Part shown: one piece after another, positions 2,411-41,129 of the stretch
Position numbering within the stretch: the stretch's first letter is position 1
Layout: each line of letters opens with the position of its first letter
DNA from: Ceratodon purpureus
Lineage: Eukaryota > Streptophyta > Bryopsida > Pseudoditrichales > Ditrichaceae
Length of the DNA stretch: 64,000 nucleotides
Direction of reading: 5' to 3'
Assembly: GCA_014871385.1 (NCBI GenBank)
Contig: CM026431.1
Span: forward strand, 3,264,604 to 3,328,603
Notes under the pieces: model-generated
Told to the model about the DNA's origin: nothing
Seen by the model: the letters and a program-made list of their open reading frames with translations, nothing else
Databases searched by the model: none
Program-made: the position numbers and the translations under genes

Positions 2411-4897
2411 ATGGCGACCAGCGTTGCAGGCATGCAGTCCGTCTCTGTAGCCCAGGTGGGTACTGCAGCAGAATTAGACTCATGGTATTCCTGAGTGAAT
2501 TTAGGTCTCATGGAAGTCGAACATCGTCCAGCGAGAGTTATGATCAATGATAGTACTCTTTCCTATGTAAATTGCTGTCTCAGCGTTGTAAGCATGTGTC
2601 TCGGTGATGATTTTGAAACATGAATGGAATGTGTCTGGAGAGCAACTGTATGTGTCCAAAATTTGAAATTTTTGTCATGAGATTTCGATAGTGCTGGTTC
2701 TGGATTCCATTTGAGAGTGGCTGAGATCATTTGCATTGAGGAGTTTTGAGATGAGTAATTAGGGTGCACAGCTATGGTTGGTGACTTGAGGGACAGACAG
2801 AGATGCGATGGTTGACGGATAGTGTGATCGTGGAATTGAAGGTAGAGTGTAAAGACCGAATGCCGGAGAATGTGCTGAATGGAAAATTGAATTTTCTGTT
2901 GCAGGTGAACAGCGTGGGCTCGTCTGCTGTGGCGAAGAGCAGTGCGTCCAGCTCTGCGTTCTTGGGATGCAAGAGCAAGGTGTCAGCCAATGTGACGTTG
3001 GGCGTCGCCAAGGGCAAGAGCCGTGTGGTGGCCGAGGCCGAGAAGGCCACGAAGAAGGTGGACAGGTGGGCCGGACTGGGCACGGACATCTCCGATGACC
3101 AGCAGGATATTCAGCGCGGGAAGGGCATGGTGGATGCCCTGTTTCAGGGCGCCACAGGAATGGGGACCCAGAACGCCATCATGAGCTCCTACGACTACAT
3201 AAGCACTGGGTTGAGGACGTAAGTGGCCTCGTCATGACGATCTGTGCTTTTTCCTAGTACAGAAGGCTTCTGTATCTTGCGCAGTTTGTGAAATTTGTGA
3301 TGAATGGCATTCCCTGTACATGTTTGGTATTCCGGCGGTGAATACCAAATTGCTTGCATAGGGGATGGTTTGAGAGGGTTGAATTGGAACTGAGAGTGTA
3401 CCCTGAACATGTTGCAGGTATAGCTTCGATAACATGAAGGACGGACTTTACATCGCCCCCGCTTTCATGGACAAGTTGGTCATCCACATTGCGAAGAACT
3501 TCATGAACCTGCCAGGCATCAAGGTTCCCCTCATCCTGGGTATCTGGGGAGGCAAGGGTCAGGGCAAGTCCTTCCAGTGCGAGCTTGTCATGTCGAAGCT
3601 GGGGATCAAGTGAGTGAAGTTTTCCCGTTGTCCCATTCTAATTGTGTGGCGTCTAGCTAGCACCTCTCCTGGGATCACAATTGTGGAGAAGCTTGTCAGC
3701 TAAATGATGTGAATTGTTGGTGAATTTTGGTTCCCGGGTGGCGCAATTCGGCTTCGGAAGTGTAGAGTTTTGCCATGACGGTTCACTGACAGGCGTTTGG
3801 ATGATATGCGTGCAGCCCGATCATGATGAGTGCCGGAGAGTTGGAGTCTGGAAACGCCGGTGAGCCCGCCAAGCTGATCAGGCAGAGGTACAGGGAAGCT
3901 GCGGACATCATCAAGAAGGGGAAGATGTGCGCGCTGTTCATCAACGATCTGGACGCGGGTGCGGGACGAATGGGAGGAACCACCCAGTACACGGTGAACA
4001 ACCAGATGGTGAACGCCACCCTGATGAACATCGCGGATAACCCGACCAACGTGCAGCTGCCCGGTATCTACAACAAGGAGACCATCCCGCGTGTGCCCAT
4101 CATCGTGACCGGAAATGACTTCTCGACACTGTACGCTCCGTTGATCCGTGACGGGCGTATGGAGAAGTTCTACTGGGCTCCGACCCGCGAGGACCGAATC
4201 GGCGTGTGCAAGGGTATCTTCAGACTGGACAACGTGCACGACTCAGACGTGACGAAGCTGGTGGACCAGTTCCCGGGACAGTCGATCGGTATGTGGCTCC
4301 CTGTTTGATGCATTTCAGAAGCTGGAATTAGGTAGCCCCTCATCTGGGGAAAGTTCGTGGTGTGCATGAAGGGCAGTCTCCGGGGGAAGATAGAACGTCA
4401 AATATAAGCTCATTGCAGCTTTGGGCAATTAGATTCTGAAATGTTCTGAAACGTTGCACAGATTTCTTCGGTGCTTTGAGGGCTCGCGTGTACGATGACG
4501 AGGTGAGGAAGTGGATCGCGAGCACCGGAGTGGAGAACATCGGAAGGAACTTGGTGAACTCGAAGAACGGCCCTCCGACGTTCGAGAAGCCTGCGATGAC
4601 CATCGACAAGCTGATGGAATACGGGCACTTGCTGGTGCAAGAGCAGCAGAACGTGAAACGTGTACAACTGGCGGAGGAGTATCTGAAGTCCGCTGCCCTC
4701 GGAGACGCGAATGCGGATCAGATCAAGCAAGGAACCTTCTATGGTGAGCTGCACACGAATGCTTGAGACGTGTTGTTGTCTCCTAATTTCCGTTTACTTG
4801 GATTGTTAGGAGCTAGTTGTGGTATATATGATAGGGTGTTGATCCGACAAGCTGTTGTTGTACAGGCGCTGGTGGACCTGCGCCGACTGAGCAGTAA
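2411..4897 (+). CDS. RCA: Rubisco activase, chloroplastic, short (beta-type) form; six exons
   Basis: AAA+ ATPase of the chloroplast stroma that strips inhibitory sugar phosphates from Rubisco using ATP. Exons are 2411-2455, 2905-3218, 3418-3609, 3816-4288, 4462-4743 and 4866-4897. All introns are GT-AG and all phases match, giving 445 aa. The start [10 protein letters not shown] opens a Ser/Ala-rich transit peptide of roughly 55 residues. The mature N-terminus has the DRWAGL segment. Walker A GGKGQGKS is at 164-171, Walker B LFINDLD at 224-230, sensor-1 TGND at 282-285, and the arginine-finger region RDGRMEKF begins at 295. The protein ends [12 protein letters not shown], with no redox-regulated C-terminal extension, so it is a beta-type enzyme. 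Retaining the last intron would instead end the protein ELHTNA. The nearest gene downstream, same strand, is PIFI, whose tail resembles the missing extension. Family identity is certain; exon 1 is inferred from splice phase and transit-peptide character. Confidence 0.97.
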
Positions 4898-24775: not shown

Positions 24776-24780
24776 TTTTA
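24776..24780. repeat. Target-site duplication (left) of the LTR retrotransposon
   Basis: TTTTA directly precedes the left LTR, and the same five bases follow the right LTR at 41125-41129. A 5-bp duplication is the usual size for Ty3/gypsy integrases. Confidence 0.9.
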
Positions 24781-26519
24781 TGTAATTGGTAAAATTTACA
24801 AATAGTGGTAAGTCATGGGAATAGGTCTTTTCGTTTAGCTTTTAACGTAACTAAAGGTCACTGTAGTAAGTAAAGAATGTATAGAATGCAAAGTATTTCC
24901 TTAAAAGAATCTCTTTATAACTCTAATGTCTTTAATTACCCCAAGTCACATAAAACCCAAGTAATCCAAACTCTCAATTGGTTCAAGGGTAATGGGAGTT
25001 CAAATTGACAAGTACCATCTCTCGGTTTATTGCCATCACTCCCTTCCAAGTTCAATTAGACAATGCATTTATTATGCATATGCAAGTTCATTCATTACTA
25101 GGTTAGAATCTAGTGTTCAACCTATTTATGCCTATGAATGATGCTTTGGGATATGTTATGATAGATTAACTTATCTCAAGCAACTCCTTGCTTGTCTTCA
25201 TCTTTTTCCTCCCATCCAACGCATTTCAAATAGACATGTAATCACTGTCTACTCATTCACATTCAATCATACTCCAACTCTACCATTCATCACAACTATA
25301 CTTCTCAATTGTATTACTCAATTACAATGACTGCACTATACTCCAATTGAATACATTCAAGTTTTACTATAATGAGAACTAATAATCACTAAGGCTGATC
25401 ACTCCTTAATAATTAATGTCACTTTTATCCATCAATGTACTCAATCTGGCTTCCATAAATTCTAAGTCATTCTCAGTCTTCTATTTCAGATGGCCAATCT
25501 AATTTAAAAGACTATCAAGTAATACTCACTTCACTGTTCCAGTACTCACATGGAACTCTCATTCTCCATAATTCCCATTCACAACAATGCAATGTCAATT
25601 GGACAAACTGTTGTGTTTATTTTCCATAATTTCTATTTTCTATTCACTCAGTAACTCTTTCCTTCGTTCTGAGTTCAAATAGACAATCTCACCCACTGTT
25701 CACTCTGCTCCATCAGCATCTTCGATTTCAAATAGACAGTATCCAGTGTGAGTCACCACATTCACTGTAACTCTCACCAACTCTCCACTGAGTCAATTAG
25801 ACATGGTCCATGCAAGTCAAGTTGACAATGTATGCATGCCCATGGATGCATACCGAACCACCATCTTGTCCATTTGACCAGTGTTAACTAGACATTATGC
25901 AGCAAGCAATATGAATTCAATTGTCAATTAGACAGTAGCCATTGGATCAAACTATTCATTCTATTTCCCATAGACTACATATAAATTCACTGTTCGGCAG
26001 ATCTGCAGTTTCAATTTGACAGTAAGCTTTGCAAATCAATTAGACAGTAATCAGTTTACTCCAGTTCTCCATTCTGATTCTACAGTTCTGCAGATTAATA
26101 CACTGTGCATCGAAGCTATAGTTCAAATTGACAAAGAGCATTGTGAATCAATTATACAGTGAGCTACTCAGAGTCAAGTTGACAATCAATTAGACAATGG
26201 AATTCTATTTTTATATTTTTTACATAATGTGACTATCACTCACACAGTGTTGTGTGGTGTGGTGAAGTAATTCTTTCTTCTTCCTTAATTCCTAGTTATG
26301 CCTTAATTTCTAAAGGGTGCGCCTGTACGTAGAGTCAATTTGACAAGTCGTGTCTCTAGGTAGGGTCATGTCCCCTGAATTCTACACTATTGTCCATTTG
26401 ACTCTCAACCAGATTTCTACAGCCACTATCTACATGGATTTCAAATTGACATGGTAACTTGGTCCTATTTACACTGTTTTTACTGAAAAGGGACTTTTCT
26501 CAAAAAAAGTCAGCTCACA
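24781..26519 (-). repeat. 3' LTR (left copy)
   Basis: 1739 bp, TGTAATTGG...CTCACA on the plus strand, so TG...CA ended on both strands. It carries 19 copies of a degenerate 11-bp palindrome (about TTCAATTAGAC / GTCAAGTTGAC). These start at 24999, 25051, 25225, 25594, 25674, 25727, 25792, 25816, 25868, 25883, 25923, 26010, 26035, 26122, 26173, 26185, 26334, 26392 and 26440. No ORF of note. Confidence 0.97.
24999..26450. repeat. Palindrome array in the 3' LTR (19 sites)
   Basis: Dispersed, non-tandem sites fit (G/T/A)TC-A/C-A-N-T-A/T/G-GAC, usually followed by A. Spacing is irregular, from 12 bp (26173 and 26185) to several hundred bp. Many sites vary in the first base but keep the right half-site GAC(A). 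The same set recurs in the 5' LTR at +14605. Confidence 0.9.
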
Positions 26520-26534
26520 TAGCCCCCCTCTTTG
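26520..26534 (-). promoter_or_regulatory. Polypurine tract of the retrotransposon
   Basis: On the minus strand AAAGAGGGGGGCTA abuts the 3' LTR start TGTGAGC. This is the expected place and composition for plus-strand DNA priming. A palindrome site (GTCTACTTGAC, 26534-26544) begins at its outer edge. Confidence 0.85.
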
Positions 26535-29500
26535 TCTACTTGACTCCCGGCAAGTTTCACATTTGCAGCATTGTCTACTAGACACTATGTCAACTAGACT
26601 CAAAAATTATATACAAAGATTAGCTTGCACACCCACTGTAACTACTGTCAACTAGACATGGTGACGTCGGTGGTGATTACGGTGCTGGTCACCGTAATGG
26701 CTCTCCTTCTGGATCCGCTGTGCCATGAGCTTAGACACCTCCCTTCTCACTTCATCATCCTTCCGAAGCAATTCAGTATTATTTGAATGCTGGAAGGTTA
26801 ACCAATTATCAATGGCTATTTTCCGAGTTCCTCTGAATTCGTTGATGAAGCATCCATTAGACCCGTACAAGAAGTGAGTCATAGCCATGACTTCCAGCAT
26901 TCTCCCCCAACGACTTGAGTGGTAACGGAGCTTGAGATTGATCAAAAACTCCGGCCTCCTCTCATCGTAGCGGTTCACATTCACCACCACCTTGAAATCC
27001 CTGCATATCCGAGCTAAAAACTTAGAAAATATGGCTGCTCGGAAACACACAGGGTCGGTGTGTGTGTGGTGAATCTGCCAGAAGCCCTCATAGGCCGTGG
27101 CACAATTCAATGCCGTGTCAAATTGACCAGGGATCAGTGGCCAATTATACTCCACCGAGTCAATTAGACTATCTGGAGCCCACTTGAATCTTCTTCTACA
27201 GTCGCAGAAATGTCCATTTGTCCTCACAGCCTCAGGAGCCGCATCGGTCCAATTGACATTAACTATCTCCTTGTAGATCAAATCCCATGACCGCTCCTCC
27301 CTTCGAGACAGTCCGTAATCCTCCAACAGCCACTCAATCGCAGTCCACGTGGGTAGCGGAAAAACCGCTTCATTGTCAAATAGACTCGCATAATTCCCCA
27401 AGTACTTGACTGTTAAGGGGGATCCTGTAACCGGTGTTCGAATAGACAGCCACCCCGGTGCCTTGTATGTGGGTGGAGGTAAGGTCAACTCGACTTGAAG
27501 ATCATGGCTGGTAATAACAAGGTGATCCTTCTTCAACTCTCTCAAGGTGTCCATGATCTGCTGCCTCACCTTGTGCATCCCGTAGACATAGTGTGCCGTG
27601 GTCAACTCGCCCCTTTGAGCATAAGTCTCCCTCTCCAGCACACATGACAACTTGACAAGGATGTTATCACGGTCATCGAACTCCTTGAGCAGCCCCTCCA
27701 AAGCTGCTGTCCACTCCTTGAGCTCCGCACTTGGCACCTTCTCCGCAACATCCACCACCTGTCTACTCGAATCGCCCATCTTAACCAGTCTGTGACTCTC
27801 CACCGACATGTCAAGTTGACGTCTCTTCTGGAGTTGCTCCTCCAGAGTGGTGTAGTATAACACCACTCGAGCTCCCAAGTGACCTATGGGGAGAAACAAC
27901 TTCTTCTGGTCGGTCAATTGGACATCGCCTCTTGCGATCATCTCACAGATGAGATTCTGCTGATTAGCATGTCTACTAGACGCTGCCCATACCGCATCAA
28001 AATCATCGCTGTCCAATAGACATCCCCTGTCTTTCCCCACCATAGCCAACCAGTTATCCCTTTGCAACTCGTATGCATGGAAAAGGGAATAACTTGGTGG
28101 TGATGTCAAGTCGACCTTCCAAAGTTCTCCTCTCAACGCCCTGTTCTCCATCCGGGCCTCCTGCAACTGCTTCTTACCAATCTCGATAGTACGGTGGTAC
28201 AATTCGTTATTGGTCTTCAGAGTCGCATAATCCGAGGGGTTGACAACCTTCACCATCGGATTTTTCTTCAAGCTTTCCAATTCTGCCTTGAGCTTTTTCT
28301 TCTCATTCCTCTCCTCGGTGCAGAGCTTGGAAATGGCGATCTTGGCATCATTCAGCTGGTCGAATTGACGTTGAAGTTCGATGCGGTGCTGCTTCTCATC
28401 GTTATACAGCTCTTGGAACGACTTCCCAGTGTCGATCTCAATGTCTGCAACGGTAGGCTTGGTCAATTCCTCATTCAATTCCGCTAAGTTAGCCAACTGT
28501 GTATTGAGCCTCCGTATATCTTCCACAGCTAGGTTGTTCTCAGTGGTCAAGTTGAACACCGTACGCTCCAATTCCTTGATCTTCAACCGTAGCTGCGTTT
28601 CTCTCACCAGTGCATCCTTGAGCTGTGCAGCCACCTCAGTCTGCGTGAGCTGCAACGCGGGTTGCCTTGCAGGTTCACGATTGTCTACTTGACTGGCTGA
28701 TCTTGCTCCTCTTCCCAACCTCGGGTTCAGTTCAAATAGACATTGAGGTAAGGAGTCATCCACCCTCCTCTTCTTTACTTTGTTGGCTCTCGAGGATGAT
28801 GGAGTCGAGGCTCTAGGCTCTGGTTCCCTTGTCAAATTGAGCAAGTCTGGAAGCACTCTCACCGGTCCAGTTGACACTCCTGCATCTCCCGGGTTTGGCG
28901 GCTTAGTCAGCTCCGAGAGGTAAATCGCACTGTAGAGTGTGATTGGATACCGCGTGTGTTTCTTACTAATCTCCACCTTGATGTTGTCAAATAGAATGTT
29001 TCCCCAACTCAATTTGACACCATTCCACCCGTAAATCGCGGCTGCTACTCCTTCCTTCGACATGATCAGCGGCCCCTTCTCCGCCAGCATGATTCTCTGA
29101 TTGAAGAATAACAACCACTCCTTCCACGTCTCTTTCGCATTCGCCAACTTGTAGCCACTCTGTGTCTTGGCAGCTCTGTCAAAGACGTTGGCTAAATCTT
29201 CCTCGGAGATTCCTCCCACTTCCTCCGTTAACAACCTGTCCCCTTGGTGCAGCTTCAGCATCTTGGAAATTGTGGTCGAGTTGAAAGGTACGCTTCTTCC
29301 ATCCACCACGGCCATCCCTCTGGATCCATACTCCGAAGAAGTCAGGAATTGATTGATCCTCCCATCATCCTGATCCTCGAAGACAACCATTACGAAATCC
29401 CAGAGTCCTGCCTTCACAAAGTTTTCCCGGTTGGCTTCAAACTGCGGCCATGCCTCCCGGTCAATCTTCTTCAATTCCAAGTGTTCAATTTGACGTCTTG

Positions 29501-30937
29501 GTCCACTTGACAGGTCCTGTTGCATTGCCTCCGCAAGCACAGGCTTCTTGGACTTCTTGTTCTTCATTGCCTTCACCTTGGGCCGAGCAATTGGCCTTGT
29601 CAATTTGACCGATCCTGCAACTTCGGGTTGGGGTCTCCCTTCATCAGTTCCTCTGCCTTCTCTGTCAACTTGACCTTCGTTTACCATGATTCCTTCTTTC
29701 TGTCTATTAGACTACACACTCGGCAGTTAGTTTGCTTCAATTCTTACTTTGTCTAATTGAAATTTTTCTCGGCATTGACTCTCCCTGAAACTCTCGGCAC
29801 TGTCTACTTGAACTCTCGGGAATTTTATCTTTGTTATTTCCTTACTTTTAAAACTATAAAACACTTCTTCCACTCGGCAATCACTTCTATCCCTAATTTT
29901 CTACTTCACAATCGTCTAAGCATACATTCCATTGAAAATATTAAGCTTCATTCTTTCTGTTCTTCTTTTCTCTCGGCAATCAGTTTGTAATATTTTCCTA
30001 CCTTACTATCATCATACATACATCACAGCACCATGTTTCAGTTTCGTTCCTTGTTTCTTACACTTTCTTTCTCTCGGCAAGTTGTGTTTTGTGATTCCTT
30101 CATCCTTGTCTACTGGACAGTCTCATTTTTTTCAAGTAACAGTTCAATTGGACATGCAAAGCAGATGTAAGACACCACATATTCAACTTGACAGAACAAG
30201 ATGGATGCAATGAGACTCACCCGCAATGTATATGTCAACTTGACTATGAGAGATATGCCTCTCAAGATGCAATGCTTCGTCTTCCCCTTCTGTCGCACTG
30301 TTTCCAATTGACACTCACAATGATCAGAAAACTCTGGGTCCAGTCGACCTAATGTATCGTATCCAACTGTTTCTCACATCGATATTATCGCAACATCTCT
30401 ATTAGCAACATTGTGTCCACTTGACCTAACTGTTTCTATGCTAATCAGGTTGTCCAATTGACAAAACAGTATGCAAAATCGATAGCAACACAACTCACCT
30501 TCACTGTGCAATTGAAACACACTTCGCTCCTTCTTCGTTCACTCCGTATCTCCCACACACTTCGTAACTCAATGTAGTAGCAACCCTCGATTTCACTCCT
30601 TTCTCTCTCGGGTCTCTCAGTATCTCTCACAAAATACAACAATGCAACCCTCAATTAAACTGTTTTTCTCTTAGTTCTCTCGGTATCTCACTCCGTCTCG
30701 TTCTAATCTCCTCGCAAGTAAGAACCTCGGTCCACTTAACAACTATCTCTCTTCACTCCTAACCCTGATCGCTCACAATGTAGCGCTCCGTCTACTTGAC
30801 AAAAACCTCGCCCACTTCTCTCAGACTCGCAGCCGGTGCTTCTCCAAGAAAATGTGTTTGTTTTGAGGTTCTGTTTTCCAAATTGGGGACGATGATGTGG
30901 TCTACTCGACTCGACCAGTCTCTTTTGTCTATTTGAC
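26534..30937. repeat. Palindrome array in the accessory ORF and flanking non-coding DNA (about 35 sites)
   Basis: Sites fit GTC-H-A-N-T-D-GAC with few deviations. Non-coding sites: 26534, 26573, 26589, 26647. In the ORF: 27117, 27159, 27247, 27375, 27437, 27484, 27810, 27913, 27971, 28011, 28105, 28359, 28683, 28731, 28865, 29484, 29501, 29599, 29664. Spacer: 29702, 30108, 30143, 30182, 30234, 30302, 30338, 30415, 30452, 30790, 30900, 30927. Several one-mismatch sites are not listed. The array stops near the pol end, and the 6.2-kb gag-pol has essentially none. Confidence 0.9.
26652..29687 (-). CDS. Accessory ORF downstream of pol, 1011 aa, function unknown
   Basis: An intact ORF in the position where some plant gypsy elements carry an env-like or extra gene. 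Residues 1-70 are basic and Pro/Lys-rich. About 75-290 form a globular region (with VVDGRSVPFNSTTISKML and WKEWLLFFNQRIML) that loosely recalls the putative plant transposon protein domains found in retroelement extra ORFs. About 290-350 is low complexity. About 350-500 is a strong heptad-type coiled coil (KELERTVFNLTTENNLAVED region). The rest, about 520-1000, is probably globular, and the C-terminus is His/Arg-rich (HHRRHHV). I see no signal peptide or membrane segment, so an envelope role is unlikely. At least 19 palindrome sites lie inside it, in all three frames, and the stop codon itself falls in one (26647-26657). DNA binding by this protein is a hypothesis only. Confidence 0.85.
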   Translation of the reverse strand: MVNEGQVDREGRGTDEGRPQPEVAGSVKLTRPIARPKVKAMKNKKSKKPVLAEAMQQDLSSGPRRQIEHLELKKIDREAWPQFEANRENFVKAGLWDFVMVVFEDQDDGRINQFLTSSEYGSRGMAVVDGRSVPFNSTTISKMLKLHQGDRLLTEEVGGISEEDLANVFDRAAKTQSGYKLANAKETWKEWLLFFNQRIMLAEKGPLIMSKEGVAAAIYGWNGVKLSWGNILFDNIKVEISKKHTRYPITLYSAIYLSELTKPPNPGDAGVSTGPVRVLPDLLNLTREPEPRASTPSSSRANKVKKRRVDDSLPQCLFELNPRLGRGARSASQVDNREPARQPALQLTQTEVAAQLKDALVRETQLRLKIKELERTVFNLTTENNLAVEDIRRLNTQLANLAELNEELTKPTVADIEIDTGKSFQELYNDEKQHRIELQRQFDQLNDAKIAISKLCTEERNEKKKLKAELESLKKNPMVKVVNPSDYATLKTNNELYHRTIEIGKKQLQEARMENRALRGELWKVDLTSPPSYSLFHAYELQRDNWLAMVGKDRGCLLDSDDFDAVWAASSRHANQQNLICEMIARGDVQLTDQKKLFLPIGHLGARVVLYYTTLEEQLQKRRQLDMSVESHRLVKMGDSSRQVVDVAEKVPSAELKEWTAALEGLLKEFDDRDNILVKLSCVLERETYAQRGELTTAHYVYGMHKVRQQIMDTLRELKKDHLVITSHDLQVELTLPPPTYKAPGWLSIRTPVTGSPLTVKYLGNYASLFDNEAVFPLPTWTAIEWLLEDYGLSRREERSWDLIYKEIVNVNWTDAAPEAVRTNGHFCDCRRRFKWAPDSLIDSVEYNWPLIPGQFDTALNCATAYEGFWQIHHTHTDPVCFRAAIFSKFLARICRDFKVVVNVNRYDERRPEFLINLKLRYHSSRWGRMLEVMAMTHFLYGSNGCFINEFRGTRKIAIDNWLTFQHSNNTELLRKDDEVRREVSKLMAQRIQKESHYGDQHRNHHRRHHV

Positions 30938-31292
30938 AGTTAGTGGGATCCTGCACTCATTCCCATGCTACGTGGTCATCATGATCACAGCCCCCAATTC
31001 ATGTACTCATATCAGCCGTCTTTCCTGGCACTAATTGTATTTTCTGATCATTACTACTTACTTATCATTTTAGTTAGTGTCTACTTGTCAATTAGTAATT
31101 TCCATTTGCTTCGAAAAATTCTCAAGTTCAGGTTTTAAATTTGTTGAACTTGTTCTTTATAAACTCAGTTTTTTAGATCGCTGGTTTTTTAATTTTCCTC
31201 AAAATTTCACAGTTTTTAGTACTTAGGTAGGACAGTTTAGAATTTTTAAATTTTTACACTTACTGCCCCCCTCTTAAATCTAGAACTTGTCC
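29688..31292. other. Spacer between pol and accessory ORF
   Basis: 1.6 kb without a convincing ORF in the element's sense. It carries at least 12 palindrome sites (29702-30937) and repeated CTCGGCA/CTCTCGG words. It probably contains the 5' leader, promoter or splice acceptor for the accessory ORF. The 350 bp nearest pol lacks sites. No promoter motif could be fixed. Confidence 0.6.
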
Positions 31293-34200
31293 TCAAGTTA
31301 TGTATGGTTTCAAACGAAACCCATTATATCTTGTGGCATGAATTTTTCCTGCAAAATCTTGAAGTTCAACTGAACCATTGGGATACGATTTTAATACCCG
31401 ATATGGTCCAAACCAACGCATTCTAAATTTTCCTGGAAATTTTTGAAATCGGCTATCATATAATAATACTAAATCATTAGGATTCAAAACTTTGGGTTCC
31501 AATTTGCTATCATAATATGTTTTACGATGTTTTTGAATAGCTTCATTATTAAGATATGCTTGGGCTCTCGTTTCATCTAATTTTTCGAGCATATAAAGCC
31601 TATGTCTTAAAGATTCTTCATCTCCTAATCGTTCATCTAATGCAATTCTTAAAGACGGGAGTTCCATTTCAATTGGTAAGATAGCTTCTTGACCGTAAAC
31701 TAATTGAAATGGAGTAAATTTTGTAGATACTTTAAATGCACATCGATAAGCCCATAATGCATCTGGTACTCTTGCGTCCCAATCTGTATTTGAACCCTGT
31801 ACAGTTTTAGTAATTATCCGACATAATATACCGTTTGTTTTCTCTGTCTGACCATTAGCACGGGGGTGATACGGTGTAGATTTTCTATGTTTAATTGAAT
31901 ATTTTTCAGTTAGTTGTTCAATTATTTCATTAAGAAAATGAGTTCCCCGATCACTTACTAATTCTTTTGGACATCCAAATCTTGTAATAATATTTTCATA
32001 TAAAAATTTGGCAACAGTTTTAGCATCATCGGTTTTCGTAGGTTGAGCCTCTGCCCATTTAGTTACATATTCAGTTGCAATTAATATGTATCTATTTCGA
32101 CCATGTCGACTAGGTGGTTTAATAGGTCCTACAAAATCAATTCCCCATTTCTCAAACGGCGTTTGAGCTAAAATTGGATTTAAAGGCATTGCCTTTGAAG
32201 GTGTAGGTTTTCCCACTCTTTGGCATGGATCACATTTTTTGGTATATCTATGTGCATCCCCAAAGAGTGTTGGCCACCAATATCCGGATTGTAACGCTTT
32301 ATGTGCAGTTACCATTCCGGCAAAATGACCGCCACATGCAGCGTCATGACAACCTTTAAGAATTAATGGTACCTCACTTGGATTAATACATCTCCGTAAA
32401 AGTCCGTCTTTACCCCTTTTATATAGAACTTTTGCAATTAATGTATATGGTTGGGATTTAAATATTAATTTTTGTTTTTGTTTATCTGTATAGTCTTGAG
32501 GGAAGGTATTGGTACTCAAGTAATGAATAACATCAGCATATTCTGCTGGAATGATATCCACTTGAAAAATATGCGCATCTGGAAAACTATCATCTATAGA
32601 TTCTGGATTCACTTCCTTACTAATTCGTGATAAGAAATCGGCATTGGCATGTTTTTTGCCAGGCCTTACATTAACCGTAAAATCAAATTCTTGAAGTAAC
32701 AATACCCATCTAGCTATTCTTCCACTCAATTGTGGTTTATTAACCATATATTTAAGTGCATCATGATCTACATGAAAAGTGAACTTATAACCTAATAAAT
32801 AATGTCTATATTTTTGAACTGAATATATCATTCCTAACCCTTCTCTCTCCGTTACAGAGTAATTTTTCTCAGCAGCACTTAATTGTCTACTAGAAAAATA
32901 TATAGGTCGATCATGACCTTTTGCGTCTTTTTGACTGAGAACACTTCCAATAGCATAATTTGATGCATCTACATAAACTTCAAACGGTTTCTCCCAATCT
33001 GGTGGTATTAGAATGGGAGCATTACTAAGCCGTTTTTTAAGTTTATTAAATGCCTTTGTGCACTCTTCTGTCCAAACACCAGGAGTATCGGTTTGTTTTG
33101 TTAGATGTGTTAAAGGAGCTGCTACTTCTGCATAAAAGTAGATAAATCTTCTATAATATCCAGAAGCTCCTAAAAATCCCTTAAGTTCTGTCATATGTTT
33201 AGGTATTTCTAATTTTTTGATAGCAGCTACTTTATCTGGATCAACACCTATACCTTCTTTTGAAACTATATGACCCACTAATCGTCCACAAGGTACAGCG
33301 AATTCAGACTTGGCTGCGTTTATTGAAATACCATATTTTTCACATTGTTCAAAACATTTCTTTAAACATTTCTGGTGTTCATCTTTAGGACTAAAGACAC
33401 AAAAATCATCTAAGAAAATTTCAATAAATTTTCTTAAATATTCCTGAAAAGCTGTTGTCATTGCTCTCTGGAAAGTAGCTGGTGCATTGCACAATCCAAA
33501 GGGCATGACGTTATAAGCAAAGGTTCCCCAATCAGTTGTAAAAGTTGTTAAAGGTTTATCTTCCGGGGCGATTTGTACTTGATTATAACCAGAAAATCCA
33601 TCTAAAAAAGAATAACATTCATGTCCTGCTACACCATCAAGGATTGCATCCGTGAAGGGTAAAGGGAAATAATCTTTTTTAGTGACACTATTTAATTTCC
33701 TGAAATCCTGACAAATCCTTAACTTCCCGTTCTTCTTAGGCACCACAACAATTGGAGATACCCACTCACTATAAGGTACTGGATATATAAAATTACATTC
33801 TAGTAGTTTATCTATTTCCTCCTTAACCATGAGAGAATATTTTGGGTTCATACGATATTGTCTTTGTCTTACCGGTTTTGTATTAGGTTCTAAAATAATT
33901 CTATGTTGACAGACTTCTGGAGGTATTCCTTTAAGGTCTTTATAAGTCCATGCAAATGCATCTTTACATTCTTTAAAGAATTTAAACCATTGTTCATATT
34001 CATTTGAATTTAATCCTTCATAAATTCTTATGTTTTTGGGCTCCTCTGAAGTTCCCAAATTCATATCAATGCAAGTGCTTTTAACAGGACTTATATTGCT
34101 ACCTTTTATGTGAGACATGTTTTCCATTAATTCTTCAGAATCACTCAAATATTGAGGTTCTAATTCCGACTCAATTTCGGCGGTTACATTAAGTACTGGC

Positions 34201-37200
34201 GAATTTTCCCATGCTAGAATAGCATCATCTGAATCTACTTCGTTATTCAGAAAGGAATATTCTCCAGTCCCTAAACATCTAAACTCAGGCATTTTCTCCT
34301 GTTCTACTACTTTAGTACTTTCGCTATTTGAATCATATGAGGTTTCAGAAGTGACATCTGTGTCTTCTTCTTGAGTCTCACCATGATATTTGACTGGAAA
34401 CATTGGTAATACAACCCGTTTCCCTTTTGCTTTTATAGTTAATGTTCCCTTTCCCCAATCATCTTTAGCTCTAGCAGATTTAAGCCATGGACGACCTAGT
34501 AATATTGGGTATGTTGATATGGATTCACTCACTTTAAAGATTATATAATTAATCTTAAAGTTAAGTCCTCCTATAGTTGTAACTATTCCTCTCAAAATAC
34601 CTAATGGTACTACTCGACTTTGATCTGCCATTCTTAAGATAATAGGAGTGGAAGTCATATGAGTTAATCCTAGTTCTTCCATAGTGTCAACATTCATTAA
34701 GTTGACACTAGAACCACTATCTACTTGGACTCCTTCAATTAGAGAACCATCTATGATTACATCCACAGTAGGTGCTCCAGGGTCCAAGGATATATCATGC
34801 ACATCTACGATTTTACTCCTTTTTCTAACCAACGAAGAACTTAGTTCACCTCTACATTTAGGTGCTATTGCTAACAATTGCCTCAAAGAAATGTCAGGTT
34901 GGATTTTATCCATATTTGTTAAGATATCATATGGATCCATTCCCTCTGACAATTTCATTGTACGATTATACTTCCTTTTCTTAGGAATGGTTGGTGTTTC
35001 TTTTAATTTCTTTTTAGGTGGTCTATAAAACGTAGGTAATGAATTTGAAGTACTAGGCAAGTTAGCAAAATCATTTGGTAAATCTTGAGGTAATATTGTA
35101 GGTTCTTCAACTGGTTGCTTACCCTTATCCTTCTCTTTCGGTTCTTCTATAGGTATTGTTTTCTCACTATTTATAGGAATGTTTGGAGGTATTAAGGGAA
35201 ATATTGGTTTAGGTTTTACAACATCCTTTTCCTTAACTACTATCGAAGGTGTGTTGTTTTTTCTCACTCTACCACTTCTATAATCACTATCAGAGCTGCT
35301 ATGTTGATCACTTTCAACCATAGCTTTTTTGGCTTGTGCACGTGTTATATAAACCTCCTGAGGTTTATCTCTCTCATATTGTGTTATTTGATTTACATTC
35401 CTTGAGTTTTCAATTTCACTGAATTGAACACTCTTCACAGGTGCTGGAGCTGTACAATTATTTGCTATATGACCACTTTGTTTACACCTCCCACATAAAG
35501 GATTATACCCAATTTGTTTCTTTGGATTTGGACAATCTCTCGCCATATGTCCTAATTCCTGACAGTTATAACACACTAAGTGTTTTCCTTTCTCAGGAGT
35601 TCCATATCTATGGGTATTAGGATTAGTAGGCGGTCCATTCCACACAGGTGCGGCATTATAAGTATCATTCCACCTTGGTCTCCCATCTCCAGGTCTATAA
35701 GGTGGTCCTACATTTGGTCTAGTAAACGGACGTTTTGAAGTTACACTATAAGGTGCTTTATTATTATTTGTCCCGTTTGCCTGCAAATTAGAACTCACTG
35801 CAGCTACTACTTTCCCCAAATTCCAACATTTAGATACGTCATGAGGTCCTCCACAAAAACTACATTTAGGTTTATTACTAAATTCCCCACCTATCGGGGT
35901 AGAACACTCATTGGAAAGGTGTCCATGTCCATTACAATTAGTGCACCACATATTGGTACGCATGTTTGTAGGTTTTGAACGTTTATCTTTCCCATGAGTT
36001 ATTTGTACCGATAGTTCATTTAATTTTTTCTCTAATTTAGTAATGTTGTTCATTAATATATCCTCTGTAGGGGCTTTAATGGCTAAAGGTTGAGGATTCA
36101 TGACTGTGGGATTTGAAGGATAAGTCGAAACTGGTAGTTGTGATCTAGCTGGAGGTAAATAAGGATAATGATCACGGCCATAAGCATCCATGCCTTGAGC
36201 ATGATCATAACCTTCTCTCCTAGGTGGATATACTTCTGCATATTGTGCAAAATCAGTATTTACTCTAGCCTCTTCCCAAGTTTTAGCTTGTGTATAAGCA
36301 CTAGCAATGTCTTGGGGGTTTCGTTCTTTTAAGTAAATTCTTAACTCATCAGGCCAAACCCCTCCTACAAAGGTACATGCTAATACTTGATCAGTTAACC
36401 CATGATTTGTCCATCTCTTTAAAAGAGCATTAAATCTTGTATAATAGGAATCTATACCTTCATTTATACCCATTCTTATAGTTCGAAATCTATCGATTAA
36501 CCCTGGTATAAATGATCTAGGTCGAAACCTATCAAGAAAAGCTCTCCTTAAGTCTTCCCATCTTGTGGGTACGGTTAGCAATTGGACATACCATTCATGA
36601 GCATCATCAAGCAATGTGCTTGGGAAAGTGCTTAAATATAAATGTTCAGGTAACTGATTTGCTTGTGCAACCACTCTAAATCTTTCCAAATGTCTATCGG
36701 GATCAGACCCTGGATATCCATGGTACATAGGATATGGTGCTATGTTTAAAATCCTTTGTTGTGCCATGATATTAGGTGGTAAAGTCTGTGGTGGAGGTGG
36801 TAGTGGTGGTGGGGGTGGTGGAGGTCTAGGATGAGGAGTTGGAGGTCTGGGAGGAGGTCGTGAAGGAGGTGAAGAAGAAGGTCTTAACAATTCTTCTTCG
36901 CTTGTTTCTCTCCTTGTATCACTACTCTCACTACTACTACTCCCAGAAGAATCTCCTGATGAAAATCTCCAACAATTTATCCCTTCCCAATCCTCATTAC
37001 TTTCATCATTAGATGGTTCATAAGGGTTGGTAAAAGGTTGTATAGTTGGAAAAGTTTCCGGAAGAGATACCTCATAAACTACTTCCTCATCATTCCACTC
37101 TTTTCTATTGCCTTCTAATGAAATTTCCCTTATGTATGTTTCAATAGGGGTTGTGGTTTCTACCTCAGTAATATCTGCAATATCATTAACCCAACTCTCT

Positions 37201-37487
37201 ATACCTGTAACAAAGGTTTGTACAGCTTTGTCAAGATAAGGTTTTGGTGTTTCAAAATTAGTTTGGGTTGGTGTTGAGAATTCAGGTAGGTTGGAAGGTT
37301 CTCCAACCTCTGTGGTGAATGGATTCTTCAAAGAACTCTCAAATTCTGAGGAAGAAGGTGTGACTAATTCTTCTACCTTCTTTCCCTTTTCAGAATTAAT
37401 TTGAAGTGGGTTTACTTCACTTGAAGATCCCCAAGTTAACCTCCTAAATGGTGGTGAGTGACAACATAAATAATGCGATCTTCTCAA
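31293..37487 (-). CDS. Gag-Pol polyprotein of the Ty3/gypsy element, 2064 aa
   Basis: Single intact ORF. Residues 1-240 are acidic, Ser-rich and then Pro-rich (205-240); the true Gag start may be Met241 (MAQQRIL). The gag core is at about 255-415 (YPGSDPDRHLERF; FLDRFRP). Four CCHC zinc knuckles start near 515, 542, 639 and 665. The aspartic protease has DSGSS at 923-927. RT is at about 1225-1400 with FLDD at 1358-1361. RNase H is at about 1500-1620 (Asp1507). The integrase has HHCC His1714, His1721, Cys1752, Cys1755 and D,D,E Asp1784, Asp1846, Glu1882. After the core comes a GPYRVLKSYPNGSVEL-type tail with no chromodomain. Gag and Pol share one frame, so Gag excess would need another mechanism. 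All catalytic residues are present. Confidence 0.97.
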   Translation of the reverse strand: MRRSHYLCCHSPPFRRLTWGSSSEVNPLQINSEKGKKVEELVTPSSSEFESSLKNPFTTEVGEPSNLPEFSTPTQTNFETPKPYLDKAVQTFVTGIESWVNDIADITEVETTTPIETYIREISLEGNRKEWNDEEVVYEVSLPETFPTIQPFTNPYEPSNDESNEDWEGINCWRFSSGDSSGSSSSESSDTRRETSEEELLRPSSSPPSRPPPRPPTPHPRPPPPPPPLPPPPQTLPPNIMAQQRILNIAPYPMYHGYPGSDPDRHLERFRVVAQANQLPEHLYLSTFPSTLLDDAHEWYVQLLTVPTRWEDLRRAFLDRFRPRSFIPGLIDRFRTIRMGINEGIDSYYTRFNALLKRWTNHGLTDQVLACTFVGGVWPDELRIYLKERNPQDIASAYTQAKTWEEARVNTDFAQYAEVYPPRREGYDHAQGMDAYGRDHYPYLPPARSQLPVSTYPSNPTVMNPQPLAIKAPTEDILMNNITKLEKKLNELSVQITHGKDKRSKPTNMRTNMWCTNCNGHGHLSNECSTPIGGEFSNKPKCSFCGGPHDVSKCWNLGKVVAAVSSNLQANGTNNNKAPYSVTSKRPFTRPNVGPPYRPGDGRPRWNDTYNAAPVWNGPPTNPNTHRYGTPEKGKHLVCYNCQELGHMARDCPNPKKQIGYNPLCGRCKQSGHIANNCTAPAPVKSVQFSEIENSRNVNQITQYERDKPQEVYITRAQAKKAMVESDQHSSSDSDYRSGRVRKNNTPSIVVKEKDVVKPKPIFPLIPPNIPINSEKTIPIEEPKEKDKGKQPVEEPTILPQDLPNDFANLPSTSNSLPTFYRPPKKKLKETPTIPKKRKYNRTMKLSEGMDPYDILTNMDKIQPDISLRQLLAIAPKCRGELSSSLVRKRSKIVDVHDISLDPGAPTVDVIIDGSLIEGVQVDSGSSVNLMNVDTMEELGLTHMTSTPIILRMADQSRVVPLGILRGIVTTIGGLNFKINYIIFKVSESISTYPILLGRPWLKSARAKDDWGKGTLTIKAKGKRVVLPMFPVKYHGETQEEDTDVTSETSYDSNSESTKVVEQEKMPEFRCLGTGEYSFLNNEVDSDDAILAWENSPVLNVTAEIESELEPQYLSDSEELMENMSHIKGSNISPVKSTCIDMNLGTSEEPKNIRIYEGLNSNEYEQWFKFFKECKDAFAWTYKDLKGIPPEVCQHRIILEPNTKPVRQRQYRMNPKYSLMVKEEIDKLLECNFIYPVPYSEWVSPIVVVPKKNGKLRICQDFRKLNSVTKKDYFPLPFTDAILDGVAGHECYSFLDGFSGYNQVQIAPEDKPLTTFTTDWGTFAYNVMPFGLCNAPATFQRAMTTAFQEYLRKFIEIFLDDFCVFSPKDEHQKCLKKCFEQCEKYGISINAAKSEFAVPCGRLVGHIVSKEGIGVDPDKVAAIKKLEIPKHMTELKGFLGASGYYRRFIYFYAEVAAPLTHLTKQTDTPGVWTEECTKAFNKLKKRLSNAPILIPPDWEKPFEVYVDASNYAIGSVLSQKDAKGHDRPIYFSSRQLSAAEKNYSVTEREGLGMIYSVQKYRHYLLGYKFTFHVDHDALKYMVNKPQLSGRIARWVLLLQEFDFTVNVRPGKKHANADFLSRISKEVNPESIDDSFPDAHIFQVDIIPAEYADVIHYLSTNTFPQDYTDKQKQKLIFKSQPYTLIAKVLYKRGKDGLLRRCINPSEVPLILKGCHDAACGGHFAGMVTAHKALQSGYWWPTLFGDAHRYTKKCDPCQRVGKPTPSKAMPLNPILAQTPFEKWGIDFVGPIKPPSRHGRNRYILIATEYVTKWAEAQPTKTDDAKTVAKFLYENIITRFGCPKELVSDRGTHFLNEIIEQLTEKYSIKHRKSTPYHPRANGQTEKTNGILCRIITKTVQGSNTDWDARVPDALWAYRCAFKVSTKFTPFQLVYGQEAILPIEMELPSLRIALDERLGDEESLRHRLYMLEKLDETRAQAYLNNEAIQKHRKTYYDSKLEPKVLNPNDLVLLYDSRFQKFPGKFRMRWFGPYRVLKSYPNGSVELQDFAGKIHATRYNGFRLKPYIT

Positions 37488-37535
37488 GCCTTCCTCTGGT
37501 AATTCTGAATCCTCATTCTTTAGAGAACTTTGGTG

Positions 37536-37793
37536 TTATTCTTCTATAGAAAGTGGATTTTGAATTGTTTCACTAACTTGGCTAGTTGAGGTATTAAGAT
37601 TTGAGGGAATAGATTCTTCTTTAAGTACTGGGGATGGTGTTGAATTGTAAACAGGATTGGCAGATACTAATGTTAAGATCTGTTTTTCTTTCCTTTCAAT
37701 CCGTTTTTTCAAACGTTCATTTCTTGCAATATTTTGTTTTTCTCTCAATTCTTTATCCTTCTCAGACATTGATAAATGCCATTTAGGCTTCAA
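37536..37793 (-). CDS. Pre-gag ORF c, 85 aa, basic coiled-coil-like
   Basis: Lies 48 bp upstream of the gag-pol ORF on the same strand, in another phase. The N-terminal half is Lys/Arg/Glu-rich and helical-looking (REKQNIARNERLKKRIERKE). The C-terminal half is Ser/Thr/Pro-rich. No family recognised. It may be joined to gag-pol by splicing or be an upstream ORF. It resembles in position the extra 5' ORFs of some large plant gypsy elements. Confidence 0.5.
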   Translation of the reverse strand: MKPKWHLSMSEKDKELREKQNIARNERLKKRIERKEKQILTLVSANPVYNSTPSPVLKEESIPSNLNTSTSQVSETIQNPLSIEE

Positions 37794-38065
37794 GCATTGA
37801 AGCTTAGACCTAAATGATCTTCTATCCCCAATTTTACTTAAAGAAAAAGGATCACTTAATTTTGTTGTTCACTCTACCTATTTCTTTTAACTATTATTTC
37901 CCTACTTCTCTTAAGAAAGTTTTTTATGATTCTCTCAACCTTGTTTTGTTTTACAGGTGCTCTGAATTGTCTATAGTAGTTTTGTCGCCCAAGTTTGGCT
38001 AATTCCCTTAATCTTTCCTCCTCTAATTTTACCATTTTCTTTATTCCATTCAATTAGAATAAAGA

Positions 38066-38395
38066 CTAACTCTTATTGGTATCAAACCAAGAGATTATCC
38101 AAGTATTCAAGGTGAAAGGTTCTACTTCAAATATCTCATCAACCTCTTCCTCTTGAAAATTCCTAGGATAATTATGTTCACTAATCAGTCTCTCTATTAA
38201 GAAGTTCTGTTCAGAATTTGATTCACCTTCCTTGCTAATTTGATCTATCTCTTTAGCTAAAAGGTGAATCAATGCTTCTTCGTTTCTTTGTATACCCTCA
38301 TAAATTATCAACAATCGTCTTAATCTGACTAATTGTTCGATAATTGTTTCACTCTCGATTGTCATGTCTTTAAAGACATAATAATCCAAACGCAA
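38066..38395 (-). CDS. Pre-gag ORF b, 109 aa
   Basis: Overlaps the end of ORF a by 26 bp, in a different frame. It is acidic and helix-rich (IEQLVRLRRLLIIYEGIQRNEEALIHLL near residues 18-46), ending with a Trp-containing segment. No recognised domain. The tight overlap with ORF a suggests the pair is translated from one RNA, perhaps by reinitiation or frameshift; this is inference. Confidence 0.5.
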   Translation of the reverse strand: MRLDYYVFKDMTIESETIIEQLVRLRRLLIIYEGIQRNEEALIHLLAKEIDQISKEGESNSEQNFLIERLISEHNYPRNFQEEEVDEIFEVEPFTLNTWIISWFDTNKS

Positions 38396-38867
38396 TTGAA
38401 ATTGGTTTATCAGATTCTCTAGATAGAAAATCTGGAATTAAAACTTGACTATCTAGTTTCTGAGGTCCGTATTTAAAGATATAAGTTTTGGTATCTAATT
38501 TGTATCCATTCCATGCTCCACAACCTTTAGAGATTATAGGTGAAGTTAAATTTTTCAATCTCCCATATTGGGCAAATAGAAAATGTAAATTGCTTTGTAA
38601 AAATAATTCTCCTTTAAAAACTATCAAAGCGTTAAACCTTGTTCCATTATCCCAAATTTTTGCTAATATTATTCTTTTGATATCAATGGGTAGTTGGTCA
38701 AATTTATTTTGAAGGTTTGAATCAAATTTAGAGTGTGTACCACAAATTTGAAAACCTTGCCCAAAATATGCTCCCCTATAAACTCGGTAAAGTGCAGCAA
38801 ATAGGAAAGGTCCTTCAAAGAATTGATTAATATCCTTTTGTTGGACTTCCCATGGAAATGGATACAT
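38370..38867 (-). CDS. Pre-gag ORF a, 165 aa
   Basis: First ORF after the 5' LTR and PBS. Aromatic-rich and globular-looking (FFEGPFLFAALYRVYRGAYF; RFNALIVFKGELFLQSNLHF). There are no zinc-finger, protease or membrane features. No homology recognised. Three short ORFs before gag are unusual for a gypsy element. Its open frame in an apparently very young element makes it worth treating as real. Confidence 0.55.
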   Translation of the reverse strand: MYPFPWEVQQKDINQFFEGPFLFAALYRVYRGAYFGQGFQICGTHSKFDSNLQNKFDQLPIDIKRIILAKIWDNGTRFNALIVFKGELFLQSNLHFLFAQYGRLKNLTSPIISKGCGAWNGYKLDTKTYIFKYGPQKLDSQVLIPDFLSRESDKPISIAFGLLCL

Positions 38868-39365
38868 TATTTACTATTGATTGTCATCAATCAAAACTCA
38901 TATACTCTAAACCTATATCGCAATCTTCTAATTAAGATCTTCTACCTCTTACTCACAATCTCAGAAAGGTTAATTACTATCACTCAATCAACCTTTAAGA
39001 GAATTTATAAACTCACCTTTTAAGACATTTCAAAAGTCTAAAGTTTCTTTTATTAACCCATGGTATAGTACAATATTTTGTTACCATACACTTCTCTGAG
39101 TTAATTCAATACTTAATCTATGTTTTACTTTTACTGTGACCCTTTCTTCACTTAAAGGATTCCTTTAAAGGTTAAAGCTGATTATAAAGATTTCCTCTTT
39201 GTCCTTAAAAGAATACACAACCACTTGCTTAAGAAGTTTTTCTTAAGAAGAAGTTGAAATTTTAAATTCTCAAAGAAACACGAGGTATCTTCTAGCTTAA
39301 AGCACAAAGATCTTCTATTCTTTACTTTATCTACACTTTTAGCTACCGCTTAACCGGAACCTATT
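38868..39365. other. Untranslated leader of the retrotransposon
   Basis: About 500 bp between the PBS and the first small ORF. It is AT-rich and no ORF is supported. Packaging and dimerisation signals would be expected here, but none can be identified by eye. Confidence 0.6.
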
Positions 39366-39382
39366 CCCCGGCAGCGGCGCCA
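39366..39382 (-). promoter_or_regulatory. Primer binding site, tRNA-Asp type
   Basis: The minus strand TGGCGCCGCTGCCGGGG lies 3 bp inside the 5' LTR. It is complementary to the 3' end of plant tRNA-Asp (ending CCCCGGCAACGGCGCCA) with one mismatch. Confidence 0.9.
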
Positions 39383-39385
39383 AAA

Positions 39386-41124
39386 TGTAATTGGTAAAAT
39401 TTACAAATAGTGGTAAGTCATGGGAATAGGTCTTTTCGTTTAGCTTTTAACGTAACTAAAGGTCACTGTAGTAAGTAAAGAATGTATAGAATGCAAAGTA
39501 TTTCCTTAAAAGAATCTCTTTATAACTCTAATGTCTTTAATTACCCCAAGTCACATAAAACCCAAGTAATCCAAACTCTCAATTGGTTCAAGGGTAATGG
39601 GAGTTCAAATTGACAAGTACCATCTCTCGGTTTATTGCCATCACTCCCTTCCAAGTTCAATTAGACAATGCATTTATTATGCATATGCAAGTTCATTCAT
39701 TACTAGGTTAGAATCTAGTGTTCAACCTATTTATGCCTATGAATGATGCTTTGGGATATGTTATGATAGATTAACTTATCTCAAGCAACTCCTTGCTTGT
39801 CTTCATCTTTTTCCTCCCATCCAACGCATTTCAAATAGACATGTAATCACTGTCTACTCATTCACATTCAATCATACTCCAACTCTACCATTCATCACAA
39901 CTATACTTCTCAATTGTATTACTCAATTACAATGACTGCACTATACTCCAATTGAATACATTCAAGTTTTACTATAATGAGAACTAATAATCACTAAGGC
40001 TGATCACTCCTTAATAATTAATGTCACTTTTATCCATCAATGTACTCAATCTGGCTTCCATAAATTCTAAGTCATTCTCAGTCTTCTATTTCAGATGGCC
40101 AATCTAATTTAAAAGACTATCAAGTAATACTCACTTCACTGTTCCAGTACTCACATGGAACTCTCATTCTCCATAATTCCCATTCACAACAATGCAATGT
40201 CAATTGGACAAACTGTTGTGTTTATTTTCCATAATTTCTATTTTCTATTCACTCAGTAACTCTTTCCTTCGTTCTGAGTTCAAATAGACAATCTCACCCA
40301 CTGTTCACTCTGCTCCATCAGCATCTTCGATTTCAAATAGACAGTATCCAGTGTGAGTCACCACATTCACTGTAACTCTCACCAACTCTCCACTGAGTCA
40401 ATTAGACATGGTCCATGCAAGTCAAGTTGACAATGTATGCATGCCCATGGATGCATACCGAACCACCATCTTGTCCATTTGACCAGTGTTAACTAGACAT
40501 TATGCAGCAAGCAATATGAATTCAATTGTCAATTAGACAGTAGCCATTGGATCAAACTATTCATTCTATTTCCCATAGACTACATATAAATTCACTGTTC
40601 GGCAGATCTGCAGTTTCAATTTGACAGTAAGCTTTGCAAATCAATTAGACAGTAATCAGTTTACTCCAGTTCTCCATTCTGATTCTACAGTTCTGCAGAT
40701 TAATACACTGTGCATCGAAGCTATAGTTCAAATTGACAAAGAGCATTGTGAATCAATTATACAGTGAGCTACTCAGAGTCAAGTTGACAATCAATTAGAC
40801 AATGGAATTCTATTTTTATATTTTTTACATAATGTGACTATCACTCACACAGTGTTGTGTGGTGTGGTGAAGTAATTCTTTCTTCTTCCTTAATTCCTAG
40901 TTATGCCTTAATTTCTAAAGGGTGCGCCTGTACGTAGAGTCAATTTGACAAGTCGTGTCTCTAGGTAGGGTCATGTCCCCTGAATTCTACACTATTGTCC
41001 ATTTGACTCTCAACCAGATTTCTACAGCCACTATCTACATGGATTTCAAATTGACATGGTAACTTGGTCCTATTTACACTGTTTTTACTGAAAAGGGACT
41101 TTTCTCAAAAAAAGTCAGCTCACA
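39386..41124 (-). repeat. 5' LTR (right copy)
   Basis: 1739 bp. Row-by-row comparison with 24781-26519 showed no difference. It carries the same 19 palindrome sites. It should contain the element's promoter and polyadenylation signal; no single TATA box is convincing. Confidence 0.97.
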
Positions 41125-41129
41125 TTTTA
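41125..41129. repeat. Target-site duplication (right)
   Basis: TTTTA, matching 24776-24780. Confidence 0.9.

Follow-up and report, generated by a model that had tools for sequence, protein, structure and literature searches.

Why should a retrotransposon be filled with copies of one short palindromic word, even within one of its own genes? The question is raised by a 64-kb stretch of the Ceratodon purpureus genome (contig CM026431.1, positions 3,264,604–3,328,603; hereafter the window, whose coordinates are used unless another stretch is named). A 16.3-kb Ty3-type long terminal repeat (LTR) element occupies 24781–41124 of the window on the minus strand, and a sequence-only reading had described a dense array of an 11-bp dyad within it, extending into an accessory open reading frame (ORF). 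We find that the array is real, selected and dyad-symmetric, and that it overlaps coding sequence. That it is a cis-acting DNA array maintained by selection is, in our judgment, nearly certain, because site counts, fixed spacing, synonymous constraint and the density kept in a diverged family all point the same way. Sites were counted with a strict word, GTCHANTDGAC, and with two looser classes, one requiring only the eight fixed letters and one allowing ≤1 mismatch.

The element has TG..CA ends, a TTTTA target-site duplication (flanks inspected) and two LTRs that are identical at 100% over 1741 bp (24780–26520 vs 39385–41125), features that point to a probably recent insertion. In the sense direction the order is LTR, pre-gag ORFs, Ty3-type gag-pol, a 1.58-kb linker, accessory ORF and 3′ LTR. 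Given the minus-strand orientation, the accessory ORF follows pol on its 3′ side and takes the ‘env’ position, which corrects the sequence-only reading. Its parts are:

24780–26520, minus strand: 3′ LTR, identical to 39385–41125; 8 strict sites, 19 at ≤1 mismatch
25594–26450, no strand: LTR site cluster, 16/19 sites at ≤1 mismatch fall within nt 1–917 of the 1741-nt LTR, element sense
26534–26599, no strand: three sites between the accessory ORF and the 3′ LTR, adjoining a purine-rich stretch
26652–29711, minus strand: accessory ORF, 3′ of pol; 1019 aa between stops, 1011 when counted from Met 9
29712–31292, minus strand: pol-accessory linker; 8 sites and 8 one-mismatch sites
31293–37535, minus strand: gag-pol in Ty3 order (gag, CCHC, protease-like stretch, reverse transcriptase (RT), RNase H, integrase); 0 sites
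37536–38870, minus strand: pre-gag small ORFs (37536–37868, 38066–38437, 38370–38870); 0 sites
39385–41125, minus strand: 5′ LTR, identical to the 3′ LTR, with the same sites

All 40 strict sites of the window (40/40) lie inside the element, eight in each LTR and 24 in 26534–30937, with none in the 8.1 kb of gag-pol and leader (31293–39384) and none in the 47.6 kb of element flanks. These counts exceed dinucleotide shuffles, a comparison the sequence-only reading had proposed: 24 sites in 26534–30937 compare with a shuffled mean of 0.042 (maximum 2 of 500), and the means for the LTRs and gag-pol are 0.028/0.010 and 0.056. Its estimate that a perfect site is expected by chance less than once per 16 kb was right. 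Its tally of about 35 sites in the interval, 19 per LTR and about 70 in all agrees with ours for the LTRs at ≤1 mismatch, whereas the interval holds 24 strict sites, 29 with the eight fixed letters and 49 at ≤1 mismatch (expected 1.9), and both LTRs and the interval together hold 40 strict sites or 87 at ≤1 mismatch. The one-mismatch extras number 11 per LTR, 13 in the accessory ORF and 8 in the linker, where 0.4–0.9 are expected in each. Gag-pol is free of strict sites, as had been claimed, but this zero alone tells little because the shuffle expectation is so low, and gag-pol has four one-mismatch sites vs 1.4 expected; the contrast lies in the excess elsewhere.

The spacing of the word is equally distinctive. 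In a scan of 24780–31292, GTC-N5-GAC ranks first (37 occurrences) among all 64 × 12 gapped 3-bp palindromes, and the inner A..T pair is present in 37/37 of these words, while the other GTC/GAC spacings, 2 to 9, occur 0–2 times each. The inner pair is found in 0/12 GTC-N5-GAC words of control stretches, in 25/27 from a diverged family (B) and in 39/40 of a C-type LTR-like sequence, both described below. Other DNA examined contained no site in 102.7 kb, 39.6 kb of which are stretches of the related D and F families. Genome-wide searches used an assembly of 362.5 Mb in 151 contigs, one of 110.5 Mb. At least nine isolated sites were found in the first 3 Mb of contig C1, where about 20 are expected by chance (extrapolated from shuffles). 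Strict sites number 4873 genome-wide, whereas the reversed control gives 2063 and about 2400 are expected by the same extrapolation; this total is roughly of the size that chance and element copies together would produce.

The accessory ORF contains 16 sites that keep all eight fixed letters and 13 one-mismatch sites. The 16 fall in frames 0/1/2 as 5/8/3 and encode different peptides; the nine frame and peptide examples given by the sequence-only reading, and its length of 1011 aa, are all accurate. Synonymous-codon shuffling of the window ORF produced a mean of 0.81 sites and a maximum of 4 in 2000 shuffles. A genome search returned 46 accessory-protein matches, of which 30, counting that of the window, are uninterrupted full-length frames with 94–100% identity; judged by its sequences, this family (A) is recently active. 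We aligned 24 copies, comprising the window, five from stretches fetched earlier and 18 others, with 14–17 sites per copy and 10 in the truncated copy L026 (81% DNA identity). Degenerate third positions that vary in at least two copies make up 1/49 at fixed letters of the sites, 7/19 at free letters and 354/911 elsewhere (fixed vs elsewhere, p 2.8e-9; fixed vs free, p 3e-4), although these p-values overstate independence because the copies share ancestry. Counting any variation, the proportions are 8/49, 12/19 and 560/911 across the 24 copies, and 3/44, 8/17 and 336/918 in the 16 intact copies alone. The contrast between fixed and free letters inside the same 11-mers is the best control. One-mismatch sites are also constrained (1/33 vs 353/888); in this analysis and in the A/B site sharing below, comparisons involving L022, L023, L025 and L026 are with broken copies. 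It is thus the nucleotide word that is kept and not the peptide, as had been proposed. The protein is constrained as well, since codon positions 1/2/3 vary at 82/62/335 places among 13 copies, and the accessory ORF is therefore under purifying selection.

Diverged relatives in the same genome show what becomes of the array over longer times. The accessory protein of family B (L007, L015) is 42%, 58% and 53% identical to that of A in three pieces, and its LTR aligns to A’s at 47%, compared with 42–45% in five alignments to shuffled sequence. The B ORF pieces nevertheless carry 14 sites (10, 4 and 0) vs 0.98 expected, and the A and B LTRs carry 8 and 7. Five of the 15 alignable A sites are retained in B vs 0.23 expected, so that sites are kept between diverged copies as well as among the 24 A copies; 9/14 B sites and 11/16 A sites are not shared. 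We read this as turnover of site places while density is kept. The block at the ORF/LTR junction, counterpart of 26534–26599, has a match in B together with its site, and we read the adjoining purine-rich stretch as a polypurine tract. Two further stretches resemble A, with 84–93% identity in most of the matched pieces; L041 holds 12 sites and L042 holds 38. The C-type LTR-like sequence (L005:3999–5972), about 72% identical to B’s LTR in the longest match, contains 39 sites, most of them in a tandem array of ~33-bp units, and is perhaps a solo LTR. No site was found in the gag-pol stretches of fetched relatives, where equal density would have counted against the sequence-only reading; none of the three tests it had set for itself (shuffled counts, conservation in diverged copies, gag-pol density) went against it. 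The matched RT-integrase part of B gag-pol is 96% identical to A, falling to 83% at its end. Compared with the window element, B (L015:5727–8480, L007:549–5575) thus forms a mosaic, alike in RT-integrase and far diverged in accessory protein and LTR, as if the 3′ half evolved faster or had been exchanged.

In four D/F stretches (L039, L040, L043, L044) the gag-pol end is 75% identical to A in the three that show it, and a homologous accessory ORF, 35–46% identical to A, is present; sites are absent in 4/4. No substitute word stands up in the three of these stretches that were scanned: in linker and ORF the best z scores are 4.5 for L039 and 4.9 for L040, vs shuffle maxima of 4.1 and 4.7, and L043, the third stretch covered by this gapped-word scan, gave only a C-rich word. 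On the 3′ side of the accessory ORF, CTTAAG/CTTNAAG is enriched in L040 and L043 (z 5.1–7.2, shuffle maxima 5.6 and 4.3) and is not one of the top words of L039. We rejected it as a second array because, when the LTRs of L039 and L043 are compared, its letters have changed no less often than the remainder (27/135 vs 310/1807, p 0.41). The D/F ORFs also exclude the idea that the array raises the GC or CpG content of the ORF. GC is 49% in the accessory ORF at 26652–29711, 36% in gag-pol and 46% in the array-less D/F accessory ORFs, which marks base composition as a property of the ORF.

Several minor features complete the description of the window. The protease-like stretch of gag-pol falls below the Pfam cut-off, and the pre-gag small ORFs have no Pfam match above it. 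Just inside the 5′ LTR, 39361–39384 (minus strand) resembles what we take to be a tRNA-Asp primer-binding site, with one difference. TATA-like words occur at LTR positions 306 and 1602. Outside the element, a plus-strand ORF at 3805–4308 presumably encodes part of Rubisco activase.

What kind of molecule carries the signal can be judged from the sites themselves, which bear out the earlier description of mirror-image half-sites around a free centre. One-mismatch sites mostly hit the outer G of either arm, with G→T 6 and 14 times in A and 1 and 5 times in B, where G→A also occurs 4 and 3 times. The inner base favours A on both arms, and letters 4 and 8 are independent (complementary in 21/62 vs 23.6 expected). 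CpG is present in 5/74 half-sites and, compared with local CpG rates, the H and D classes look like a reflection of CpG scarcity and not a separate rule. We detected no helical phasing of the sites. Because mismatches affect both arms and letters 4 and 8 do not covary, this pattern fits dyad-symmetric double-stranded DNA with independent half-sites and speaks against hairpins in RNA. Small GUC-loop-GAC hairpins might serve packaging or RNA control, since a palindrome is able to fold and numerous sites belong to the 3′ part, which is presumably transcribed, but the inner letters are an invariant, mirrored A and T, the outer-letter mismatches lack compensating changes, and the sites crowd nt 1–917 of the LTR, presumably its U3, while none occurs in the 5′ leader (37536–39384). 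We regard a role in RNA as very improbable. Still less credible is a functionless by-product of tandem duplication or of recombination with a motif-rich satellite; the ~33-bp tandem units of the C-type LTR would suit such an origin, yet sequences flanking the A sites are unrelated to one another, the sites occupy three frames with different peptides, and synonymous positions within them are strongly constrained. A recurrent peptide motif that generates the word is next to impossible, even though some frames yield similar tetrapeptides (VxLT, xQFD): the peptides differ among frames, protein-preserving codon shuffling yields 0.8 sites where 16 are observed, and the LTR and linker, which are noncoding, are full of the word too.

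Two known systems offer parallels, and the Sirevirus palindromes, which the sequence-only reading did not name, match the layout better than its own suggestion, VANC. In the passages describing them, Sirevirus RM boxes number 8–32 palindromes per element, concentrate in the LTR’s upper half, ahead of the TATA box, and recur in the linker that leads to the 3′ ‘env’ ORF, where 77/79 linker copies precede ENV; all but one have a CGG-CCG core, and two elements have a few palindromes at the start of the ‘env’ ORF (PMC2829016). The window element is similar in its upper-LTR cluster and in the 16 sites at ≤1 mismatch that its linker holds before the 3′ ORF. Sireviruses, however, are Ty1/copia elements, whereas here RT and RNase H precede integrase, placing the element in the Ty3 superfamily; the word is GTC-N5-GAC with inner A..T in place of the CGG-CCG core, and the sites extend along the entire ORF, where they are constrained at synonymous positions.

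The parallel with VANC is imperfect; the resemblance lies in an extra element-encoded protein beside a dense, family-specific short motif. VANDALs are Mutator-like (MULE-type) DNA transposons, and the VANC domain is DUF1985. The published passages describe an element-encoded VANC beside a dense family-specific motif, with self-recognition shown; the motifs, YAGTATTAY and AGTTGTCC, occupy noncoding tandem repeats and change from one VANC family to another (PMC5735166, PMC10398659). For the moss element self-recognition is proposed only. Unlike a VANDAL, it has LTRs, a target-site duplication and Ty3 gag-pol, and no VANC domain was recognised in the window ORF (Pfam to E=10 gave only PF20167, E 0.14, and PIN_12, E 6.5, with HMMER filters dropping most weak matches). 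VANC targets are not palindromes, while the word here is a dyad. Its sites are mostly scattered with unrelated flanks and also occupy coding DNA, the tandem C-type LTR being different in this respect. The VANC motif varies with the protein family; A and B have the same word across proteins only 42–58% identical, and D/F lack it and show no convincing substitute.

Among Ty3 elements, the OTA group (Athila/Tat) carries extra ORFs, and some members have noncoding tandem-repeat arrays; the passages on this group mention no palindrome array (PMC6317226). At the Pfam level the window element is like Athila-type OTA, being long, in Ty3 order and with an extra 3′ ORF, and with no chromodomain or second RNase H matched. 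The moss Phygy clade fits less well because it is described as short and without room for an extra ORF (PMC6317226). In searches of open-licence PMC papers, none of the papers listed showed such a palindrome array in a Ty3 or moss element, which is not proof of absence.

The accessory protein does not resemble a plant retroviral envelope. Its best 19-residue hydropathy is 1.18 in A, and two B pieces reach 1.09 and 0.77; neither A nor these two pieces thus have a membrane-like segment (hydropathy window >1.6). The value for L040 is 0.73, and L039 (F) reaches 1.75 in one window. The protein has basic clusters and, in our reading, a coiled-coil-looking middle, and we take it to be probably a nuclear protein with a coiled coil rather than an envelope. 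Protein database searches gave one relative, P0001 (98% over 61% of the query), and a short P0002. The N-terminal part is weakly like PF20167, ‘Putative plant transposon protein’, at sub-threshold scores (E 0.025 for L040:2356–4827, and the value above for the window ORF).

We hypothesize that the array consists of double-stranded DNA binding sites for a sequence-specific protein, which would bind as a symmetric dimer to GTCnA/TnGAC half-sites with one free central base; dimeric binding is suggested by the symmetry of the site. Strong and one-mismatch sites together would form a ~5-kb regulatory tract spanning linker, accessory gene and 3′ LTR and repeated at the 5′ LTR, with the in-gene sites stretching it across the gene that encodes the reader. 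The likeliest reader would be the element’s own accessory protein, recognising its own family through many sites and activating or de-silencing it, a VANC-like logic in a Sirevirus-like layout. We favour the accessory protein, at about even odds, over a host factor, which we rate lower. In its favour, the word is not enriched in other DNA examined, in the families where we found an accessory ORF the array goes with the A/B kind of protein while array-less D/F carry a clearly different one (two clades compared), and the ORF is under purifying selection with basic clusters and no membrane-like segment.

Several results weigh against this proposal. The same Pfam search and a PDB sequence search, which returned nothing informative, identified no recognisable DNA-binding domain in the accessory protein, and AlphaFold models of its N- and C-terminal parts are unusable (mean pLDDT, the predicted local distance difference test, 34 and 36). 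Since D/F have a homologous ORF without the array, that ORF needs no array. The conservation signal within the LTR is weak: in 12 LTR sequences, several partial, any variation affects 5/72 fixed letters vs 271/1600 elsewhere (p 0.023), but free letters likewise scarcely vary (1/27), and for variation common to two copies the difference (0/72 vs 59/1600, p 0.18) is not significant. The LTR CpG ratio is low (0.23) and does not suggest a long-term lack of methylation there. Finally, A and B share the word despite their divergent proteins, which a conserved host reader would fit at least equally.

Such a host transcription factor would make the array an enhancer and the in-gene sites part of a long 3′ enhancer or an internal promoter, an explanation we hold to be credible while falling short of probable. 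Beyond the word common to A and B, it draws on the C-type LTR, whose tandem array is filled by the word with no accessory ORF or gag-pol detected by tblastn within the 9 kb fetched around it, and on Sirevirus palindromes, which are described as matching mainly stress-factor sites in a database (PMC2829016). The genome-wide excess of strict sites over the reversed control also accords with it. Outside element clusters, however, there is no enrichment where examined, and the four D/F stretches of the same genome are without any site. TTGAC is the core of the W-box read by WRKY factors and TGTC that of the element read by auxin response factors (ARF); they occur in only 38/74 and 40/74 half-sites, which makes WRKY or ARF a poor fit as sole reader, and we rejected both in that role; the sequence-only reading had likewise noted that neither explains the TAGAC, TGGAC and free-centre variants. 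We know of no plant factor that fits the word.

The Ceratodon element would be a clear case of a dense cis-acting array that sits within a transposon’s own gene and is kept because synonymous positions are under selection, while related families in the same genome lack it. What is new is a Sirevirus-like layout that occurs in a different superfamily, uses a different word and continues through an ORF. More speculatively, and with less than even probability, the ‘env’-position ORFs of LTR retrotransposons in plants, both in this element and in Sireviruses, which are unrelated to it, might encode nuclear readers of their own palindromic arrays. Such a self-recognition system would serve activation or anti-silencing, and the gene for the reader, being itself composed of reader sites, would be selected twice over. 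Were the accessory protein indeed the reader, the ‘env-like’ ORFs of plant retrotransposons, long a puzzle, would gain a function, and VANC anti-silencing would have a retroelement counterpart.

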